DNA of 64,000 bases from assembly GCA_946184615.1 (NCBI GenBank), contig CAMHFN010000007.1, positions 1 to 64,000 of the forward strand, given 5' to 3'. The stretch is from an uncultured Bacteroidales bacterium (GTDB lineage: Bacteria; Bacteroidota; Bacteroidia; Bacteroidales; F082). Made by a program: the position numbers and the translations under genes. The notes below the pieces were generated by a model. That model saw nothing but the letters and a program-made list of their open reading frames with translations. It was not told the origin of the DNA and ran no database searches. This document shows positions 52,829 through 63,254 of this stretch, piece by piece; the first letter of the stretch is position 1; each line of letters opens with the position of its first letter.

Positions 52829-52836
52829 TATTTTTG
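52829..52836 (+). promoter_or_regulatory. -7 element TATTTTTG for the 1499-aa adhesin gene
   Basis: TAnnTTTG with an approximately 70-nt leader. Confidence 0.55.
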
Positions 52837-52911: not shown

Positions 52912-55900
52912 ATGTTTAAAAAGTCTTTACTCTTAGCACTCCTAATGGCACTGTTTACGCCATGGGTAGCTAATGCACAAACGACCGTGGAGATAGGAGA
53001 TGGTACTGCTACTACCAACACCAATCCTATTGGAACGTATTACAACTACTCCATCACCGAGCAGCTCTACACTGCCGATGAGATTGGAACGGCTGGAACC
53101 ATCAGTAGCATCAGTTTCTACTATATGGGGCTTGCCGCCAAAGATCTCCCGATTACGGTTTACATGCAAAACGTTGATGCAGAAGACCTTTCAACAGGCA
53201 TCAGCCTTGCCGATGCAGACGAGGTCTACAATGGAACGCTTTCCGTTACCACAACAGCGGGTTGGGTTACCATCGACCTCGACACGCCTTTCGCCTATGA
53301 CGGAAGATCGAACCTGCTGATTGGCATCATCAAAGATTATCTTTACTACTTCAGCGGCCAATCATGGCAGGGCACCTCTGTTTCCAATATGGCCCGTTAC
53401 ACTCAAAGCGATGGTTCTGGCCCTTACACGACTAGCACAGTGCCTGGATCTACAGCAGCTGTCCGCCCGAACATCCAGATGGTCATCACTGCTGGTAGCG
53501 GCTCTGTGTGCGACAAGCCAGAAACCTTTGAAGTTTCCAACGTGACCACCAACAGTGCCACTCTCACTTGGACAGGCGGCAGCGGCACTTACAACGTTGA
53601 GTACAAAGGTGGTTCGGTTCAAGATTGGACGGCTTATCTGACCAACACCACAGCTACCACTGCCAACTTGACCGGTCTCACCCCTGGCACAAATTACCAA
53701 TACAGAGTGCAGAGCATTTGCTCAGACGGCACAAGCGGCTGGAAGAGTGTGAGCTTCTCCACCATGTTCGGTATCCCGTTGGTTGAAGAGTTCGGCACGG
53801 CCATTCCTTCCGGTTGGTCAATTTACAACGGATTGGTTGAAAATGTGCTGGCTGGCGGCGACTTGACCACTGCAAGCTACGGCTGGAGCTTCGGTAGCAA
53901 CAACGGCGTGTTCGACAACCATGCCCGCGTCAACATCTATGGCACTAGCTGCAATAATTGGCTGGTTCTTCCCACCCTTGACATGGAAGACAACGTGCAG
54001 CTCATGTTTGATGTAGCCTACACCGCCTACAGTGGCACGGGAGCCCCTGCCCAAACTGGTGAAGACGATAAGTTCGTCGTTCTGGTCAACAACGGCCGCT
54101 CCTGGGAAATCATGCGCCAGTGGGACAATGCCGGCAGCGAGTATGTGCTGAATGACCTCAACACCACGCCTATCACGGTTGCCATCAACTTGAGCAACTA
54201 TGCCGAAGCCGGCCAGCCAATCACTGTGGCATTCTATGGTGAATCCACTGTGAGCAATGCTGACAACAACCTGCATATCGACAACGTAAGCATCGACTAT
54301 ATCCCTGCTTGCCCGAAACCCAATGGCCTTGCTGTAAACTATGAAAGCGGCACCACTGCCACTGTAACGTGGAATGGCGACGCTGCCAGCTACCAGTTAG
54401 ACGTGAACGGCACCACCTATACCTCCAACACCAATTCGTATAACCTCACGGGTCTCGAACTCGCCACCACTTACGAAGTGAAAGTCCGCGGCAACTGCGG
54501 CAGCGATGGCTACAGCGAATGGACCAATACCGTCAGCTTCAAGACTGACAACTGCATGCCCGAAGACATGTGCGCCCTTACCTTTGTCCTCTCTGATAGT
54601 TATGGTGACAGTTGGAACGGCGCTTCCATCGGTGTTTATGACTATACCGGTGAAGAAGTGGGCGACCTTTTGGCCTCAGTAACCATCTCGTCAAGTCTTG
54701 GAGCTGATGTGGAGCAAACCACTACTCTTTCTTTCTGCAACGGACAAGAGCTTGCCATCATTTGGACGGCAGGTAGCTATGACAGCGAGTGCTCCTACAC
54801 CATCACCGACCTCAACGGCGACATCGTTGCTCAAGACGATTTTGATTTGGCCTTGGCTTACACTGTCGACTGCACCGAGACCGACTGCCGTAGACCTTCT
54901 GACTTTGTCGCTTCTGAAATCGGCCCCCACAGCGTGGTGCTGAGCTGGACCGAGAACGGCCCTGCCACCTCATGGGTCATTGCTTATATATCAGAAAATG
55001 ACGAGGAGATTACCGAAATTACGGTCAACACCAATCCTTACACTCTCACCGGCCTTACTCCTGAAACCGCCTACGCTGCCCAGGTGACTCCTGTGTGCGA
55101 TGTGGACAAACCGAGTGAGATTGTTTACTGGACTACCGACGTGGCCTGCCCGAGACCCACGAATTTGAGTGCTGTTCCTTATCCTAACTCAGCCAATTTG
55201 ACTTGGAACGGCTTTGCCGATGCCTACGACCTCGAATGGGCTTTGATGCCTGCCTCAGGATCGAAGGATGCCCTCTGGCTGCAGTATGACAATGGAACGG
55301 TGGTTACCAATGTTGGTAACAGTACAGTTTATGAATGGACTTGGGCTGTGATGTATCCTGCTGATATGCTCCAAGGCAATAATAGGCTTTCAAAAGTTGC
55401 ATTCTATGAGACCAGCTACTATTCAGAAGGAGATCCTATCACTATCAACATCTATTCTGGTGGCGATAGCGAACCTGGAACATTAGTTTACACAGAAAAT
55501 GTCACCTGCACTGGTACTGTCGGAATTCACGAAGTCATACTTTCGTCTTTTGTAAATATCGATCCTGCTCAAAACCTTTGGATTACGCTTACTTCAACAA
55601 CAATCGATCGTCCCATGGCGATGAGTGCCGTTGACGAAGCCAACGGCAGATGGGTTGACAACAACGGTAGCTGGATAGATTTAGGTACCGCCCTTGCCTC
55701 TGTTTCTACATACACCTTCATGATTCGCGGCTATGTTGAACCTGGCTTCGATCCTGAGGAATTGGACTGGAATCCTGTTTCAGGCATCACTTCACCTTAC
55801 ACCCTCGAAGGTCTGCAACCTGAAACGACCTATGTCGTCAGAGTGAAAGCCAATTGCGGTGGCGATGACGGAGAAAGTGACTGGACCATGATTACCTTCA

Positions 55901-57411
55901 CCACACCTTCTGTCTGTGATATGCCGAACACCTTTAATGCTGAAGTTGAGGCTACCTCCGCCACCCTCAGCTGGGTTGGTTATCAAGAGAGCTTCAATTT
56001 GAAATACAGAAGTCTTGCGAAACTCGAAAATGCTACCCTCACGGAGAACTTCGATGAGGGCATGGGTGACTGGACCACCATCGACGCCGATGGCGACGGT
56101 TACACCTGGGTTTCGAGCATGAATCCTGGCGACTATCACAATGCAGGTGTTGACCTGACTGGCAATGGCCACAACGGTTCAGCCCAGTTCGTGATTTCAG
56201 GATCTTATTCCAATTCATTAGGTGCAGCCTTAACTCCCGACAACTATCTTGTTTCGCCTCAAATTGAGTTGGGCGGCGGTATTGAGTTCTGGGTCAAGGC
56301 TCAGGATGCCGGTTACTTTGCTGAGCACTTTGGCGTTGCCGTGTCAACCTCGGGCAACACCGATGCCGCTGATTTCACCACTATTGCAGAATGGACATTA
56401 GAAGATGGAAATGATTGGCATAAATATGTTGTTGACTTAAGTGCCTACACTGGACAAGGTTATGTGGCTATCCGTCACTTCAACTGCACCGATATGTTCA
56501 TCCTCAATCTGGATGACATCTCATTTGGTCCGGTAGTACCTGCCAGCGACTGGATTGTTGTGGAAGAAACCAACACTCCTTATGTGCTCAGCACTGAACC
56601 TAATACCACTTACGAATGGCAAGTCCAGGGCGTTAGCCGTGAATGCACCACCGAATGGTCTGAAATCCAATCCTTCACCACTCCTGAACTGACTACCATT
56701 GAACAACCCATCACCCTCAACACGGGTTCCAACTACGTTTCATTCTATGTTGATATCACCATGGATGAACTGAAAGCTGCTATACAAGCTGCGTACGTAG
56801 GTGGCAACGTCACCATCAAGTCTCTGAATTCGGGTCAAACCATGTACAACGGAGCCAGATGGAGAGGTTCCTTGAATACTTTGAATATGTCCGAAATGTA
56901 CATGATTGTGGTTTCTGATGATGCTGATGCTATGGAAATCTCGGTCGAAGGCATGCCTATTGATCCTGCTTCCTATCCGATTAACATCGCCGCGGGTACC
57001 ACATGGTTTGCATTCCAACTCTCCGAGCCTATGACTGTTGCTGATGCATTTGCTGAATTTGATGCTGTGAATGGTGATGCTATCAAGTCGAGTGGTTCTG
57101 GCCAAGCCACCTATAACAATAGATGGAGAGGTGCTCTTACCACACTGCAACCTGGTGTTGGCTATATCTTCAAGGCAGCTGACGCAGTCACTGAAGCCAG
57201 ACCGCTTGTCTTCCCCACTCCTCGCAAGGCTGGAAACGCCAAAGCTTCTTTCATGCCTCAAAACGTGGACAAGATGGCCCTCAAGACAGTTCAAGTCAAG
57301 ACCCTGGACCTCCAAATTAGCAAGCCCGAACGTGCGAATGTTCCTTCTAAGGCTAACCAAACAAACAATTTTCACGACACTGTTTCAAGATTGTTTAATA
57401 AAATTCACTAA
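52912..57411 (+). CDS. Multi-domain secreted adhesin (FN3 and cleaved-adhesin-like domains), no recognisable T9SS C-terminal domain
   Basis: Signal peptide; several FN3 units (SATLTW...YNVEYK...NLTGLTPGTNYQYRVQSIC); cleaved-adhesin-like segments; C-terminus ends PSKANQTNNFHDTVSRLFNKIH. Confidence 0.85.
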   Translation: MFKKSLLLALLMALFTPWVANAQTTVEIGDGTATTNTNPIGTYYNYSITEQLYTADEIGTAGTISSISFYYMGLAAKDLPITVYMQNVDAEDLSTGISLADADEVYNGTLSVTTTAGWVTIDLDTPFAYDGRSNLLIGIIKDYLYYFSGQSWQGTSVSNMARYTQSDGSGPYTTSTVPGSTAAVRPNIQMVITAGSGSVCDKPETFEVSNVTTNSATLTWTGGSGTYNVEYKGGSVQDWTAYLTNTTATTANLTGLTPGTNYQYRVQSICSDGTSGWKSVSFSTMFGIPLVEEFGTAIPSGWSIYNGLVENVLAGGDLTTASYGWSFGSNNGVFDNHARVNIYGTSCNNWLVLPTLDMEDNVQLMFDVAYTAYSGTGAPAQTGEDDKFVVLVNNGRSWEIMRQWDNAGSEYVLNDLNTTPITVAINLSNYAEAGQPITVAFYGESTVSNADNNLHIDNVSIDYIPACPKPNGLAVNYESGTTATVTWNGDAASYQLDVNGTTYTSNTNSYNLTGLELATTYEVKVRGNCGSDGYSEWTNTVSFKTDNCMPEDMCALTFVLSDSYGDSWNGASIGVYDYTGEEVGDLLASVTISSSLGADVEQTTTLSFCNGQELAIIWTAGSYDSECSYTITDLNGDIVAQDDFDLALAYTVDCTETDCRRPSDFVASEIGPHSVVLSWTENGPATSWVIAYISENDEEITEITVNTNPYTLTGLTPETAYAAQVTPVCDVDKPSEIVYWTTDVACPRPTNLSAVPYPNSANLTWNGFADAYDLEWALMPASGSKDALWLQYDNGTVVTNVGNSTVYEWTWAVMYPADMLQGNNRLSKVAFYETSYYSEGDPITINIYSGGDSEPGTLVYTENVTCTGTVGIHEVILSSFVNIDPAQNLWITLTSTTIDRPMAMSAVDEANGRWVDNNGSWIDLGTALASVSTYTFMIRGYVEPGFDPEELDWNPVSGITSPYTLEGLQPETTYVVRVKANCGGDDGESDWTMITFTTPSVCDMPNTFNAEVEATSATLSWVGYQESFNLKYRSLAKLENATLTENFDEGMGDWTTIDADGDGYTWVSSMNPGDYHNAGVDLTGNGHNGSAQFVISGSYSNSLGAALTPDNYLVSPQIELGGGIEFWVKAQDAGYFAEHFGVAVSTSGNTDAADFTTIAEWTLEDGNDWHKYVVDLSAYTGQGYVAIRHFNCTDMFILNLDDISFGPVVPASDWIVVEETNTPYVLSTEPNTTYEWQVQGVSRECTTEWSEIQSFTTPELTTIEQPITLNTGSNYVSFYVDITMDELKAAIQAAYVGGNVTIKSLNSGQTMYNGARWRGSLNTLNMSEMYMIVVSDDADAMEISVEGMPIDPASYPINIAAGTTWFAFQLSEPMTVADAFAEFDAVNGDAIKSSGSGQATYNNRWRGALTTLQPGVGYIFKAADAVTEARPLVFPTPRKAGNAKASFMPQNVDKMALKTVQVKTLDLQISKPERANVPSKANQTNNFHDTVSRLFNKIH

Positions 57412-57441: not shown

Positions 57442-59028
57442 ATGAAAAAACTAGTATTGACTTTAATCGTGTCATTCGCACTTCTGGGTTCGGCTTTCGC
57501 CCAGTACAACTCTGACATTTACGAATCCTACTGGATTGACCAACTGAATGTTCATGTCTACAATCCCTACGAATATCCAGACTGCATCGTTCCCTTCGCA
57601 CAGATTGACGGCGAGTTCGTCACCTATGATATGGATTACGAAGCCATGGAAATCGGTGTTTTCGATGAAAGCGGCACCTGCCGTGGCCACTCCTTCCTGG
57701 TTGATGACGGTGAGGACTACCCCATCACCGAGATCTCGGTCTACCGTATGCTTGCAGGCGACAACGACCATCTGCTCTCCTTCATGATGTACGACCATGC
57801 CAATGGCATTTTGTACACCGAGTGCACTCCCAACAACGACTACTACACGGGTTACGACTACGTTGAGATTTACATGGGTGACCTTGATAACGCCCCGATC
57901 CTCAACTTCGCTACTCCTGTAGTGGCTTCCTATGAGAAGTTCATTGAAGGCTATGGTGAGAGTGCTGGTGGTTACTACCTGATTGCCACTCCTGTTGCCG
58001 ACGCCGACCCCACTGCTGTCACGGGTATGACCACTGGCAACTACGACCTGTATGCCTTTGACCAGACTCAAGACCTTGAATGGCGTAACTATAAAGAGGA
58101 TCTCTTCAACCTCGAGTTCGGCAAGGGTTACCTCTATGCCCACGGCACCGATGTCACACTGGAATTCAGCGGCACGACTTACGATGGTGACGGAGAATTT
58201 GACCTTGTTTACGACGATGCTGCCGACTTCAAGGGCTGGAACCTGGTAGGTAACCCCTATCTGGAGACGGCCTATATCAACCGTGAGCACTATGTCATGA
58301 ACGAAGAGACCGGTCGTGGCGAATTCATCGCAGTCGCCGCCACCGAAGGCATTCCGGAAATGGAAGGTGCTTTCGTGATCGCTGAAGGCGAAGGTGAGAC
58401 TGTTACCTTCACCACCACCGCTCCTGGTAAGGCCTCCATGCTCGCCCTCAACGTGAGCCAGGGTAACGGCGTCATCGACCGTGCCATCGTCAGCTTTGGT
58501 CAAGGCCACCGTATGCCTAAGATCATGCTCAACGAAAATAACACTAAGGTGTACATTGTGGAAGACAACGCCGACTTTGCCGTGGTTCGCAGCGAAGGCC
58601 AAGGTACGATGCCTGTCAGCTTCAAGGCTGAAAACAACGGTACCTACACCCTCAGCATGAACAGCGAGAACGCTGAGTTCAGCTACCTCCACCTCATCGA
58701 CAACATGACTGGCAACGATGTCAACCTCCTCGAGACCCCGAGCTACAGCTTCGAAGCCACCACGAGCGACTATGCCAGCCGTTTCCGCCTGGTGTTCGCC
58801 ACGGGTGAAGCCACTGATGGCAACTTCGCTTTCATCAGCGATGGTGAAATCATCCTCAGCGGTGTCAACGGCAACAGCATCGTCAATGTGTTCGATGTCA
58901 CGGGCCGTCTGGTCAACAGCAACAACGGTGTCAACCATATCTCCACCGAGAGCATGTCTGCTGGCGTTTACATGATCCAACTCGTCAACGGCGAGAACAT
59001 CATGACCCAGAAGATCGTTGTGAAATAA
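57442..59028 (+). CDS. T9SS type A sorting domain-containing surface protein
   Basis: Signal peptide; C-terminal GEIILSGVNGNSIVNVFDVTGRLVNSNNGVNHISTESMSAGVYMIQLVNGENIMTQKIVVK. Confidence 0.88.
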   Translation: MKKLVLTLIVSFALLGSAFAQYNSDIYESYWIDQLNVHVYNPYEYPDCIVPFAQIDGEFVTYDMDYEAMEIGVFDESGTCRGHSFLVDDGEDYPITEISVYRMLAGDNDHLLSFMMYDHANGILYTECTPNNDYYTGYDYVEIYMGDLDNAPILNFATPVVASYEKFIEGYGESAGGYYLIATPVADADPTAVTGMTTGNYDLYAFDQTQDLEWRNYKEDLFNLEFGKGYLYAHGTDVTLEFSGTTYDGDGEFDLVYDDAADFKGWNLVGNPYLETAYINREHYVMNEETGRGEFIAVAATEGIPEMEGAFVIAEGEGETVTFTTTAPGKASMLALNVSQGNGVIDRAIVSFGQGHRMPKIMLNENNTKVYIVEDNADFAVVRSEGQGTMPVSFKAENNGTYTLSMNSENAEFSYLHLIDNMTGNDVNLLETPSYSFEATTSDYASRFRLVFATGEATDGNFAFISDGEIILSGVNGNSIVNVFDVTGRLVNSNNGVNHISTESMSAGVYMIQLVNGENIMTQKIVVK

Positions 59029-59058
59029 ATTGTAAAATAATCTAAAATTTGAATCAAT

Positions 59059-59331
59059 ATGAAAAAATTAGCATTATCAATCGCAATCGTTCTCGGAATG
59101 AGCCTTGGTGCTTTCGCTCAGGGCGGTCTCTTCCAATATGGCAACGCTTATGACGAATACGGCACCCGCACGGGACTCCGTGGCACACTCACCGATCCGT
59201 TGATTCCTATCGTCCCTGGCCATGGTGAAACCAGTAGCCAAGACGGCACGGAAACACCGCTCGCCGGTGGTGCACTCCTTCTCATCGGCTTCGGCGCAGC
59301 CTATGCCCTGAAGAAGAGAAACGAGAAGTAA
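59059..59331 (+). CDS. Small secreted protein (90 aa) with Gly-Gly/TM/Lys-rich CTERM-like C-terminus
   Basis: MKKLALSIAIVLGMSLGAFAQ signal and TPLAGGALLLIGFGAAYALKKRNEK tail; paralogue at 62889. Confidence 0.8.
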   Translation: MKKLALSIAIVLGMSLGAFAQGGLFQYGNAYDEYGTRTGLRGTLTDPLIPIVPGHGETSSQDGTETPLAGGALLLIGFGAAYALKKRNEK

Positions 59332-59390
59332 TCTGAAAACGGAAAACGGAGAACGGAAAGTTTCCCGTTCTCCACCTCTGTGATTCTTCA

Positions 59391-59419
59391 AAAAAAAGCC
59401 TCCCTCCGGAGGCTTTTTT
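59391..59419. terminator. Intrinsic terminator after the first small CTERM-like gene
   Basis: AAAAAAAGCCTCC-CTCC-GGAGGCTTTTTT. Confidence 0.85.
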
Positions 59420-59512
59420 ATTTTTAGTTCCCCTCGTCTTTATATTAATAAGGTGTGCTCGAGAGAAAGTAAAAAAATCTTTAAAAAGATGTTGTACGTA
59501 AAATTTTTTTTG

Positions 59513-59520
59513 TAATTTTG
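59513..59520 (+). promoter_or_regulatory. -7 element TAATTTTG for the 1071-aa surface protein
   Basis: TAnnTTTG with an approximately 65-nt leader. Confidence 0.55.
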
Positions 59521-59590
59521 CAGCCCGAAATGGAAAAAAACACAATTAATTCAACTTATTATAAATCAAATTAAAAACAAATCGAACGAA

Positions 59591-62500
59591 ATGAAAAAAT
59601 CTTTATTTTCATTGATTCTTATCTGCTTCGCCTTCTTTGGCGTGGCTAATGCACAGCAATCGTTGCCGTATAGCTACGGCTTCGAAGACAACAACCTGGC
59701 CACTGATGGCTGGATTGCTAATGTTACAAGTGCTTCCTCTGGCATTAACAGCGCGGCTGCCTATTCAGGTAGTTATGGCTTTAGGTTCAATTATTCCGAG
59801 CAATCAGGAAGCCTGATTTCACCGGTACTCACTGGTGGCGACTTGGGTGTTGACGTATCCTTCTGGTACAAGGAATACAGCAACTCTTATGGTGACGAGC
59901 AATTCTATGTCGGTTATACCACTGACGCGAACAACACCGACGTCGATGCTTTCACCTATGGCACCATTGTTACCGCTTCAACAAGCTGGCAAGAATACAC
60001 CAATTCTTTCCCTGCTGGCACCAAGCGCATTGCCATCAAGTATGTCTATAATGATGCGTTTTATCTTTACCTTGACGACTTCACCTTTGAAGCTGTGAGC
60101 GACTGCCCCAGACCAAAAAACCTTGAAGTTACTTTAGGTGATGATACCGCCACAGCTACTTGGACAAGCGATGCCACCAGCTTTAACATCGACATCAACG
60201 GCACTGTGACCAACGAAGTCACCAACCCCTACACCTTCGATACTGAAATGTCTACGGCTTACACCGTGAAGGTTCAGGCCAATTGCGAAGGTGGCGAAAC
60301 CAGCGATTGGAGTGATGCTTACACCTTTTACACTCCTTCTTGCCGGCCCAGCGACATGTGCTCCATCACCCTCAACCTCACCGACTCCTATTCTGATGGT
60401 TGGAATGGCGGTAAGATGGAAGTGGTGGATGCCAACACTAGCGAAGTCTATGGCACCTATACCATTGAAAGTGGTGGCTCCGCTAACTACGAGCTTGCCC
60501 TTTGCCCTGGTACTGTGGTCAACTTCGTCTATACCGCAGGCAGCTATGGCACTGAAAACGGTTGGGTGATTTATGATGCTAATGGTGAAGTCATCACCGA
60601 GGCGGCTGGTTGCAACTCGGGTTGCAATCATACCAACGGCATCCAAGCCACCTATACTATGAACTGCTCTGGCTGCTTCAAGCCCAAGAATCTCACAGAA
60701 ACCAACGTTTCCTTTACTTCTGCCACTTTGAGCTGGGAGGGAAACAACGACAGCTATGTGCTGCAATACCGTCCTTGGAATCCTGCTGGTGACGATATCA
60801 TCACCACCGGCACCTTGACCACTTACACTGTTGATTTGAGTCAATACGAAGGTACTGGTTCTGTGGCCATCCGCCACTACGACATTTCCGACATGTTCCA
60901 ACTGATTGTTGACAACATTGAAGTGACCAACGCTACTGGAACGGTTGTCTATTCCCAAGACTTCGAGAGCTGCGGCGGCAATATGCCTTCCGAATTCTCG
61001 AATATGGACTTGGATGGTGATGGTTATATGTGGGAAATTGCTTCCTCACCTTCTTCTAATGTCGATGGCACATACGGTATCGTTTCCGCAAGTTATGATA
61101 ACAACGCTGGTGCATTGACTCCTGACAACTGGTTGATTCTCTCCGGCCTTGAAATGGGTGGCCAGATGACCTTCCAAGCTCGTGGACAAGACCCACAATA
61201 TGCCGCTGAAAACTTCGCTATCTACGTTTCTACGGAGAACAGCATTGTTGAAGTTCCTGTCACTGCCACTACCTATAATGCCACTGGCTTGACTCCTAAC
61301 ACGCCTTACGCATGGCAAGTGAAGGGCATTTGTGGCGATGAAGAAACCAGCTTCGTTTCCTCTTTCTTCAAGACTAAGGACGATATGTTTGTCTTTGCTA
61401 CCACGGGTAACTGGAACGTTGTTAGCAACTGGAAAGATGCCGAAGGTAATGCAGTCACGGCTCTGCCTACCGCTGATAACAACGTCCGCATCGATGCCGC
61501 TGCCACCATTCCTGCTGGCTATGTCGCCTACGCTAACAAAGCCACTATCGGTACGGGTTCTATCACCATCGAGGACGGTGGTCAGCTGAAACAAAACGCT
61601 GCTACCTTGAGAGTCACTATGGAAAAAGAAATCGCTGGCTACGGCGAAAGCGATGGTAACTACTACTTCATTGCCAGCCCGTTCAATGGCCGTACCCTCT
61701 ATTCAACCTCTGGTTCGTTCAGCCATGTTGACAACATGCTTACTGGTGAATACGACCTCTATGCCTTCGATGCTACCGAAGAACTTGAATGGATCAATTA
61801 CAAATCCAGCCCCACCCACATTGCTTTCCAAGCTGCCAATGAACTTGCTGGCCTGCTGTATGGCGAGGGTTACCTCTATGCCAATCAAGAAGGAACAACC
61901 TTGGAATTCGAAGGTACCGCTGGTAAGAGCAACAACTACTCCGAAACCAAGGATTACACGTTCGACAGCGAATCCACCAACGACTTCAATGGCTGGGCAC
62001 TTGTGGGTAACTTCTTCACCTGCAACGCCTACATCAACTACATCGATGCCAATGGCAACGCTTTGGAAGCTGACTTCTATACTTTGAACAACGACAACAC
62101 CTACACCCTGATGACCTCGGGTCAACCTCTGGCTCCTTGCACTGGTGCCCTCATCAACTACAAAGCCACAGGTAAGGTCCAGTACTCCACCGAGGCTCCT
62201 GCCGCCGGTAAGGGTAGCATGCTCGACATGACTGTCACTGAAGGTCGTGGTAAAGTCGACCAAGCCCGTATCCGCTTCGGCGAAGGCTTTGGCCTCGAAA
62301 AGAAGAGCTTCCGCAACAGCGGCAGCCTCTACATGCCTCAAGACAATAAGGACTACGCAGTGGTCTATGCCGAGAACGAAGGTGAAATGCCTGTCAACTT
62401 CAAGGCTGAAAAGAACGGTACCTACACCATCAGCTTCAACACCGAGAACGTTGAGTTCGGTTACCTCCACCTCATCGACAACATGACTGGCAACGACGTC

Positions 62501-62806
62501 GACCTGCTCAGCACTCCTAACTACAGCTTCGAAGCCAACACCACCGACTACGCCAGCCGCTTCCGCCTGGTGTTCAGCGCCAACAACGCCAACGAAGGCA
62601 GCTTCGCCTTCATCAACAACGGTGAGATCATCCTCAGCGGTGTCAACAACAACAGCACCGTCAATGTGTACGATGTTACCGGTCGTATGATCAGCAGCAC
62701 CAACGGTGCCAACCGCATCTCCACCGAGAACATGTCAGCTGGCGTCTACATGATCCAACTCGTCAACGGCGAGAACGTCATGACCCAGAAGATCGTTGTG
62801 AAATAA
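59591..62806 (+). CDS. T9SS surface protein with FN3 and permuted cleaved-adhesin-like segments
   Basis: Signal peptide; FN3-like units; C-terminal half homologous to the 57442 gene; ends TVNVYDVTGRMISSTNG...GVYMIQLVNGENVMTQKIVVK. Confidence 0.88.
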   Translation: MKKSLFSLILICFAFFGVANAQQSLPYSYGFEDNNLATDGWIANVTSASSGINSAAAYSGSYGFRFNYSEQSGSLISPVLTGGDLGVDVSFWYKEYSNSYGDEQFYVGYTTDANNTDVDAFTYGTIVTASTSWQEYTNSFPAGTKRIAIKYVYNDAFYLYLDDFTFEAVSDCPRPKNLEVTLGDDTATATWTSDATSFNIDINGTVTNEVTNPYTFDTEMSTAYTVKVQANCEGGETSDWSDAYTFYTPSCRPSDMCSITLNLTDSYSDGWNGGKMEVVDANTSEVYGTYTIESGGSANYELALCPGTVVNFVYTAGSYGTENGWVIYDANGEVITEAAGCNSGCNHTNGIQATYTMNCSGCFKPKNLTETNVSFTSATLSWEGNNDSYVLQYRPWNPAGDDIITTGTLTTYTVDLSQYEGTGSVAIRHYDISDMFQLIVDNIEVTNATGTVVYSQDFESCGGNMPSEFSNMDLDGDGYMWEIASSPSSNVDGTYGIVSASYDNNAGALTPDNWLILSGLEMGGQMTFQARGQDPQYAAENFAIYVSTENSIVEVPVTATTYNATGLTPNTPYAWQVKGICGDEETSFVSSFFKTKDDMFVFATTGNWNVVSNWKDAEGNAVTALPTADNNVRIDAAATIPAGYVAYANKATIGTGSITIEDGGQLKQNAATLRVTMEKEIAGYGESDGNYYFIASPFNGRTLYSTSGSFSHVDNMLTGEYDLYAFDATEELEWINYKSSPTHIAFQAANELAGLLYGEGYLYANQEGTTLEFEGTAGKSNNYSETKDYTFDSESTNDFNGWALVGNFFTCNAYINYIDANGNALEADFYTLNNDNTYTLMTSGQPLAPCTGALINYKATGKVQYSTEAPAAGKGSMLDMTVTEGRGKVDQARIRFGEGFGLEKKSFRNSGSLYMPQDNKDYAVVYAENEGEMPVNFKAEKNGTYTISFNTENVEFGYLHLIDNMTGNDVDLLSTPNYSFEANTTDYASRFRLVFSANNANEGSFAFINNGEIILSGVNNNSTVNVYDVTGRMISSTNGANRISTENMSAGVYMIQLVNGENVMTQKIVVK

Positions 62807-62818
62807 AATAGTTCCATC

Positions 62819-62847
62819 GGGGCGGACCCCTCGGCCCGCCCCCTTTT
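62819..62847 (+). terminator. GC-rich hairpin with short T-run between surface protein and small CTERM-like gene (possible attenuator)
   Basis: GGGGCGG-N10-CCGCCCC then CTTTTG. Confidence 0.6.
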
Positions 62848-62888
62848 GAAACGAAGTTAAAAACGAAAGAAATAAAAATCTGAATACA

Positions 62889-63140
62889 ATGAAAAAATTA
62901 GCTTTGTCACTCGCAATCGTTCTCGGAATGACGGTTTGCGCCTCTGCTCAAGGTGGCTTCTTTGGTAAAGGTCCTTCCACCGAAGACGCTGGTAGCCGTG
63001 GTGGTTTCCCCGGTATGCCTGGTCATGGTGAGACTGGTAACCAGGATGGTCAAGGTCAACAGACCCCGCTCGCTGGCGGTGCTCTCCTGCTCATCGGCTT
63101 CGGCGCTGCTTATGCCATGAAGAAGAGAAACGAGAAGTAA
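62889..63140 (+). CDS. Small secreted protein (83 aa) with Gly-Gly/TM/Lys-rich CTERM-like C-terminus
   Basis: MKKLALSLAIVLGMTVCASAQGG...PGMPGHGETGNQDGQGQQTPLAGGALLLIGFGAAYAMKKRNEK. Confidence 0.8.
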   Translation: MKKLALSLAIVLGMTVCASAQGGFFGKGPSTEDAGSRGGFPGMPGHGETGNQDGQGQQTPLAGGALLLIGFGAAYAMKKRNEK

Positions 63141-63162: not shown

Positions 63163-63193
63163 TAAAAAAAGCCTCCCCACGGAGGCTTTTTTT
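63163..63193. terminator. Intrinsic terminator after the second small CTERM-like gene
   Basis: AAAAAAAGCCTCC-CCAC-GGAGGCTTTTTTT, nearly the same as the terminator at 59391. Confidence 0.85.
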
Positions 63194-63254
63194 ATTTCCC
63201 AGTTAACTTGAGTATCCTTTCTTCGTCAAATTCCTCAACTTTGAGAGAAAATTG

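Follow-up and report, generated by a model that had tools for sequence, protein, structure and literature searches.

The window analyzed here is a 64,000-nucleotide stretch of contig CAMHFN010000007.1 (assembly GCA_946184615.1), part of a metagenome-assembled genome of an uncultured Bacteroidales bacterium (2.34 Mb in 60 contigs, 79% complete). It contains two units in which a gene for a cargo protein of the type IX secretion system (T9SS) is directly followed by a gene for a mini-protein of 90 or 83 aa and by an intrinsic terminator (Table 1). An initial annotation, made from the letters alone, had proposed that the mini-proteins share a signal peptide, a PGHGET..QDG element and a nearly identical tail. 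The alignment agrees: the two proteins are 70% identical, and their invariant parts are the start of the signal peptide, the PGHGET..QDG element and the tail. Both upstream neighbors score above the 23-bit cut-off of TIGR04183, the model of the T9SS type A C-terminal domain (CTD), and the GCCTCC/GGAGGC terminators that had been noted behind both units are strong hairpins.

The two units lie where they had been described, but the picture of a duplicated unit is incomplete, as the genome holds five full members of the mini-protein family and unit 1 is probably a three-gene operon that starts at 52912. The whole-genome search found the other members on contigs 10, 36 and 5, and retrieved the 83-aa protein from the 90-aa query at E = 7e-25. 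Contig 10 (L005) carries a copy of the pair, with a small protein 100% identical to the 90-aa protein, a cargo protein of 529 aa and a different terminator. Compared with window positions 57513–59309, its DNA is a mosaic: 700 bp of the cargo gene are 100% identical, most of the stretch up to and through the CTD is 58–87% identical, and the mini-protein gene is 98–100% identical. Gene conversion, recombination and a repeat-related assembly effect are candidate causes. The contig 5 member (SPLGSGLILLAGMGGLYMLAKRKKE) is diverged, with a 4-bp overlap between its start and the stop of a T9SS-CTD gene, while the contig 36 member lies near the contig end, 3′ of a gene that we read from its open reading frame (ORF) as a putative 5-formyltetrahydrofolate cyclo-ligase-like gene. 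A weaker sixth match of 99 aa sits at the end of contig 40, with no upstream sequence. The genome has 81 T9SS CTD genes above the cut-off.

The stop codon of the cargo gene is separated from the mini-protein gene by 30 bp in unit 1 and 82 bp in unit 2, and a gap of 30 bp also separates the first gene of unit 1 from the cargo gene. We used the consensus of the Bacteroidota −7-like element for a promoter pattern search, which found no such element between the cargo and mini-protein genes of either unit. Because these gaps contain no promoter-like element, co-transcription of cargo and mini-protein is the simplest reading. The hairpin in the unit 2 gap is a possible attenuator that would set the ratio of the two products. 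A 1150-aa gene with the same C-terminal repeats as the 1499-aa protein of unit 1 also precedes the contig 10 copy of the pair. These repeats form an unnamed region (GSNYVSFYVDIT...YNGARWRGSL...GYIFK; window 56600–57411, L005 5921–9160 and 11138–14590) that is common to the large secreted proteins adjoining the units and gave no T9SS CTD model match where tested; it may be another C-terminal region of interest.

Table 1. Features of the two units and their positions in the window.
Feature	Position	Strand	Evidence
Unit 1, −7-like element TATTTTTG (Bacteroidota), putative promoter 5′ of first gene	52829..52836	+	pattern match alone
Unit 1, first gene: 1499-aa secreted protein, fn3 and choice-of-anchor J	52912..57411	+	Pfam/ORF; no T9SS CTD model match
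Unit 1, T9SS type A cargo of 528 aa, paired with the 90-aa protein	57442..59028	+	TIGR04183 36.1 bits
Unit 1, mini-protein of 90 aa: signal peptide MKKLALSIAIVLGMSLGAFA/Q, then a short mature part that includes PGHGET..QDG, then a CTERM-like tail	59059..59331	+	
Unit 1, tripartite tail TPLAGG-ALLLIGFGAAYAL-KKRNEK of the 90-aa protein	59254..59328	+	NF046080 18.4 bits; tail profile A4 62.7 bits
Unit 1, intrinsic terminator AAAAAAGCCTCC/GGAGGCTTTTTT	59392..59419	+	hairpin −17.5 kcal/mol, z −4.9
Unit 2, −7-like element TAATTTTG (Bacteroidota), putative promoter 5′ of the unit	59513..59520	+	pattern match alone
Unit 2, T9SS type A cargo of 1071 aa, paired with the 83-aa protein	59591..62806	+	TIGR04183 42.8 bits; Pfam fn3 and Cleaved_Adhesin in N-terminal part
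Unit 2, G+C-rich hairpin between cargo and mini-protein genes, weak U tract	62819..62842	+	−19.4 kcal/mol for 62806–62860, z −2.1
Unit 2, mini-protein of 83 aa: signal peptide, then a Gly-rich mature part that includes PGHGETGNQDG, then a CTERM-like tail	62889..63140	+	
Unit 2, tripartite tail TPLAGG-ALLLIGFGAAYAM-KKRNEK of the 83-aa protein	63063..63137	+	NF046080 17.9 bits; tail profile A4 65.7 bits
Unit 2, intrinsic terminator GCCTCC/GGAGGC	63163..63194	+	hairpin −19.2 kcal/mol, z −5.9

Class and motif range of the tail

A helix rich in small residues after a conserved P-x-x-G-G or P-x-x-S-G motif is typical of cleaved CTERM signals. The initial annotation had placed the tails in the CTERM sorting class, and their best NCBIfam match is such a model, PID_CTERM (NF046080), though at scores below its curated cut-off of 26 bits; the highest score among genus members checked singly was 19.9 bits. 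The mini-proteins have the PID-CTERM architecture: they are short secreted proteins that end in a P-x-x-G-G motif, a Gly/Ala-rich helix and a basic end. PID-CTERM members of other families also lie behind T9SS cargo genes. The genus differs in carrying PLGSG, PLAGG or PLGGG in place of PIDGG, and in scoring 18–20 bits. Among 149 members, the motif was PIDGG in 77, PLGSG in 26, PVGSG in 8, PIGGG in 7, and PLAGG, PLGGG and PLDGG in 6 each. Because the motif runs from PIDGG through PLGSG to PLAGG, the window tails seem to be one lineage's version of the PID-CTERM signal. The tail profile matched 99 of 100 genus genomes at E ≤ 0.1, with 1 to 25 matches per genome.

The PEP-CTERM/EpsH and GlyGly-CTERM/rhombosortase systems also combine a tripartite C-terminal sorting signal with an intramembrane enzyme, but they have another motif and another enzyme subfamily, and their tail models are unmatched here. 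The suggestion of a GlyGly-CTERM/rhombosortase system was not borne out, since the window mini-proteins gave no GlyGly-CTERM match at E ≤ 1 and the nearest model is PID-CTERM; a PEP-CTERM reading was rejected in the same way (no TIGR02595 match at E ≤ 1; 8.8 bits on another genus member). Handling of the tail by a rhombosortase or by an LPXTG/sortase-like enzyme could be argued from its GG pair and from TIGR01167 (LPXTG_anchor), which scores 16.3 and 17.4 bits on the window mini-proteins and barely passes its cut-off of 15.9 bits. We consider such handling highly improbable: an LPxTG motif is absent, which led us to reject a sortase substrate, much of the genus has SG or NG where the window tails have GG, and the gene that is present belongs to the exosortase family instead. 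From their sequences, we read the mini-proteins as a diverged PID-CTERM/XrtX pair with the genome's enzyme, and not as GlyGly-CTERM/rhombosortase.

Fusion proteins in two related genomes (G095 and G107; L170, L171, L172 and L174) carry a signal peptide, a mini-protein and a PLGSG-type tail in frame with a second hydrophobic stretch, which has a lipobox-like Cys (LLIGTTGC, LLLGLSQC) and is followed by a large domain that neither Pfam nor NCBIfam names. Such a fusion is a possible polyprotein, and it fits a cleavable tail because the chain would need cutting to give two products.

Two further sequence features were seen. An HG-containing element (HGETGNQ, HGTTGNQ or HGQTGNQ) stands before the tail in 23 of the 39 genus members, in 19 of the 83 at order level and in none of the 28 at phylum level; it may be a site for recognition or binding. 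Another PID-CTERM class, PPPPPPQDIPIDGG (for example L140–L144, L148 and L153, at order- and phylum-level loci), is often found beside an exosortase gene and not behind T9SS cargo; it may be the exosortase's own accessory substrate.

The exosortase-family enzyme and its co-occurrence with the tail

The dedicated processing enzyme that had been supposed has a candidate in the genome. It encodes a single exosortase-family protein (206 aa; contig 1, about 152033–152650), and a PF09721 search found an exosortase-like ORF in most of the genus genomes tested. The best NCBIfam model of this protein is exosortase X (NF046081, TIGR04178 family) at 92.8 bits, with 84.9–92.8 bits in four genus members and a cut-off of 170 bits. 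The TIGR04178 signature (cut-off 23) is passed at 59.3 bits in one search and 61.8 bits in another, and at 56.9–62.5 bits in the four genus members. Like exosortase X, the enzyme is a multi-helix membrane protein with conserved Cys, Arg and His; it differs in forming a separate sub-branch and in having no adjoining mini-protein gene in the source genome. C103, R144 and H165 are invariant in 11 genus sequences, and we take Cys, Arg and His to be the catalytic positions of exosortases. From the neighboring accessions of NF046080 and NF046081, we infer that NCBI treats the two families as a pair.

We rejected a neighborhood link between the enzyme and the mini-proteins in the source genome, where the flanking genes have no evident relation to them (one small-conductance-channel-like, one sugar-kinase-like). 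In one sub-lineage (L099 and L106, from G123 and G136), the exosortase gene lies directly 3′ of an OMP_b-brl_2 outer-membrane protein gene. Another exosortase-family protein of a T9SS bacterium is XrtF (TIGR04128) of Flavobacterium johnsoniae, whose deletion affects surface colonization and biofilm and whose substrates are given as unknown (PMC10936215). XrtF belongs to another subfamily, and the genus enzyme scores 43–51 bits against its cut-off of 90 bits.

We then compared the distribution of enzyme and tail across the order, using the same 323 genomes for the exosortase profile (123 genomes matched), the tail profile (12) and NF046080 (73). All 12 tail-positive genomes have an exosortase (Fisher p = 6.6e-6), as do 8 of 8 when the genus itself is removed (p = 3.2e-4). 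When tail and PID-CTERM matches are combined, 71 genomes have both the signal and the enzyme, 8 the signal only, 52 the enzyme only and 192 neither (p = 1.8e-28); these p-values ignore shared ancestry, and the positives are spread over many families. A repeated search with TIGR04178 turned 2 of 8 PID-positive, exosortase-negative genomes positive (G205 and G456). In 16 order genomes a PID-CTERM ORF and an exosortase ORF are no more than 1 kb apart, and 95 of 100 genus genomes have an exosortase. A contig search with a three-sequence alignment returned only three close relatives.

This co-occurrence bears on an alternative in which the tail is an uncut membrane anchor, so that the mini-protein would stay in the inner membrane, facing the periplasm, as a chaperone or adaptor that helps its T9SS neighbor to reach the translocon. 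A signal peptide, one helix and a basic end would fit a type I membrane protein, and five genus genomes keep tails with no exosortase detected. Against an uncut anchor stand the strong co-occurrence with exosortase, the many genomes in which PID-CTERM genes adjoin an exosortase gene, and the combination of helix and P-x-x-G-G or P-x-x-S-G motif known in general from cleaved CTERM signals. We therefore judge an uncut anchor improbable, and consider it likely, from sequence, that the mini-protein is an exosortase substrate.

Pairing with one family of T9SS cargo

We scored the pairing by means of a hidden Markov model of 20 CTDs from the source genome, counting a CTD gene that lies directly upstream on the same strand. 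The pairing noted in the window proved to be conserved far beyond the source genome: a T9SS-CTD gene lies directly upstream of 114 of the 149 distinct mini-proteins that could be evaluated, with 40 bp as the median gap, at loci that are best-scoring or hand-picked matches rather than a random sample. Hand-picked loci at the order level avoided those adjoining an exosortase gene and were not selected for T9SS adjacency. By set, the pairing was found in 33 of 41 genus members, 19 of 23 order-level tail proteins, 38 of 57 order-level PID-CTERM proteins and 24 of 28 phylum-level PID-CTERM proteins, compared to about 4–5% expected from the share of CTD genes in the source genome. Of the 35 mini-proteins that have no upstream T9SS gene, 13 share their locus with an exosortase gene.

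A hitch-hiking duplication of the two-gene cassette with no functional link between its genes would also place them side by side, and in the window and contig 10 copies the entire pair has indeed been duplicated recently, as a mosaic. The pairing, however, is seen again in many families and classes, with cargo and mini-proteins that differ widely, and drift would have broken it; we give such a coincidental expansion almost no credence.

The CTDs of the paired cargo have a feature of their own. CTDs usually, though not universally, begin with a YPNP-like motif. This motif is absent from both window cargo proteins, whose TIGR04183 matches start at model position 12–15 and whose CTDs span residues 473–528 (528-aa cargo) and 1013–1071 (1071-aa cargo). 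The YPNP-type motif is present in 18 of 20 sampled CTDs of the same genome and in 22 of 23 paired CTDs from other classes of the phylum. We observed that, in Bacteroidales, a CTD subclass lacking the motif accompanies the cargo module described below (89 of 90 paired CTDs).

Paired cargo proteins of different classes align with each other over 300–450 residues at 20–40% identity. We built a profile of this module, excluding the CTD, and found it in 24 of 24 paired partners tested, from several classes and including partners outside the order. It matched 0 of 17 canonical CTD genes of the source genome and all three of the unpaired genes that share the partners' CTD type, and the result was unchanged when own-genome rows were left out of the profile. 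The 528-aa cargo, where the module covers approximately residues 160–452, scores 263 bits without these rows; the 1071-aa cargo, tested over residues 670–1071, scores 255–342 bits.

A search of solved structures with the family profile gave RemA at E = 2.7e-28 and RemZ at E = 1.8e-27, aligned over profile positions 5–447 (443 positions) and covering the C-terminal ~490 residues of each. RemA and RemZ are T9SS cargo of Flavobacterium johnsoniae (PDB 8gl6 and 8gl8), and the portion of the source available for them mentions no mini-protein partner for RemZ (PMC10994853). RemA is a gliding adhesin, whereas the N-terminal parts of the cargo here are fn3/adhesin-like. The relation is seen by the family profile only, as phmmer searches of the PDB with single partner sequences returned nothing useful. 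The AlphaFold2 model of the 528-aa partner has a predicted local distance difference test score (pLDDT) of about 85 over residues 160–528; a fold search with it returned only solved T9SS CTDs and a DUF3244-like domain at high probability, the rest being generic beta-sandwich noise.

The specificity of this pairing matters for a further alternative, namely that the mini-proteins are exosortase substrates whose freed peptide acts apart from the cargo, as a signal peptide or a surface decoration, and has only operon and regulation in common with it. In most lineages the mature parts are short, low-complexity and rich in Pro and Gly, and some members stand alone, such as the contig 36 member with its own promoter-like element, or adjoin an exosortase and have no T9SS neighbor, all of which a separate peptide would explain. 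The pairing, however, is with one cargo family that is defined by a module outside the CTD, and not with random T9SS cargo or operons. Because of this restriction, a physical partner fits better, and we regard a separate peptide as unlikely.

Proposed processing and its implications

Five observations were made from sequence: the tail architecture, the exosortase homologue with invariant residues, the co-occurrence, the gene pairing and the specificity for the partner module. We propose a mechanism in which the mini-protein would enter the periplasm by Sec and be retained in the inner membrane by a diverged PID-CTERM signal, made up of the P-[ILV]-[DGA]-[GS]-G motif, the short helix and the basic end. 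An XrtX-like exosortase would then cut near the motif and free or transfer a mature peptide of ~45–60 residues. The peptide would most likely reach the cell surface and serve as a dedicated subunit or anchor of the neighboring RemA/RemZ-type T9SS protein. In this scheme cleavage, transfer, surface location and physical partnership are what we infer. As a whole, we find the mechanism reasonably probable; that the released peptide would be a partner of the T9SS cargo we consider an even proposition.

Several observations weigh against this reading. Both window tails score below the curated cut-off of PID-CTERM, and the enzyme below that of exosortase X. The exosortase gene is remote from the mini-protein genes in the source genome, and the AlphaFold2 model of the enzyme, from 11 sequences, is too poor for active-site geometry (pLDDT 56) and was left unused. 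The contig 36 member stands alone, and 4 of 8 genes of the partner CTD type in the source genome, one of them at a contig end, have no mini-protein. The five genus genomes that have tails and no exosortase (G062, G069, G070, G072 and G086) are also negative with TIGR04178. While about 12 absences would be expected in the genus from genome incompleteness alone, G062 and G069 are rated 98% complete, and consequently a strict dependence of the tail on the exosortase is not proved.

The initial annotation had recognized no described system with this pairing. The sequence classes themselves were already in NCBIfam as PID-CTERM and exosortase X, and in that part the statement needs correction; no published description of their coupling to T9SS was found. 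In the literature searched, PID-CTERM and exosortase X are not named in this sense and no function is described for them. A T9SS/exosortase pairing is likewise undescribed in the portions of that literature available to us, and the NCBIfam family notes may record a T9SS link. The sequence classes are known, and their coupling to T9SS appears to be new.

The named families PID-CTERM and exosortase X gain a concrete neighbor, one T9SS cargo family that is homologous to the gliding protein RemA, and the role of exosortases in Bacteroidota becomes testable. PID-CTERM is extended to cover a large gut genus in which both the tails and the enzyme score below the present model cut-offs. More tentatively, and with somewhat less than even confidence, two sorting pathways may be linked across the phylum, the exosortase-released peptide, of the PID-CTERM type or its PLGSG variant, being an obligatory surface subunit or covalent anchor of RemA/RemZ-type cargo. 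If the obligatory-subunit reading is true, one adhesin would be built of two halves, one delivered by the T9SS and the other by the exosortase pathway.

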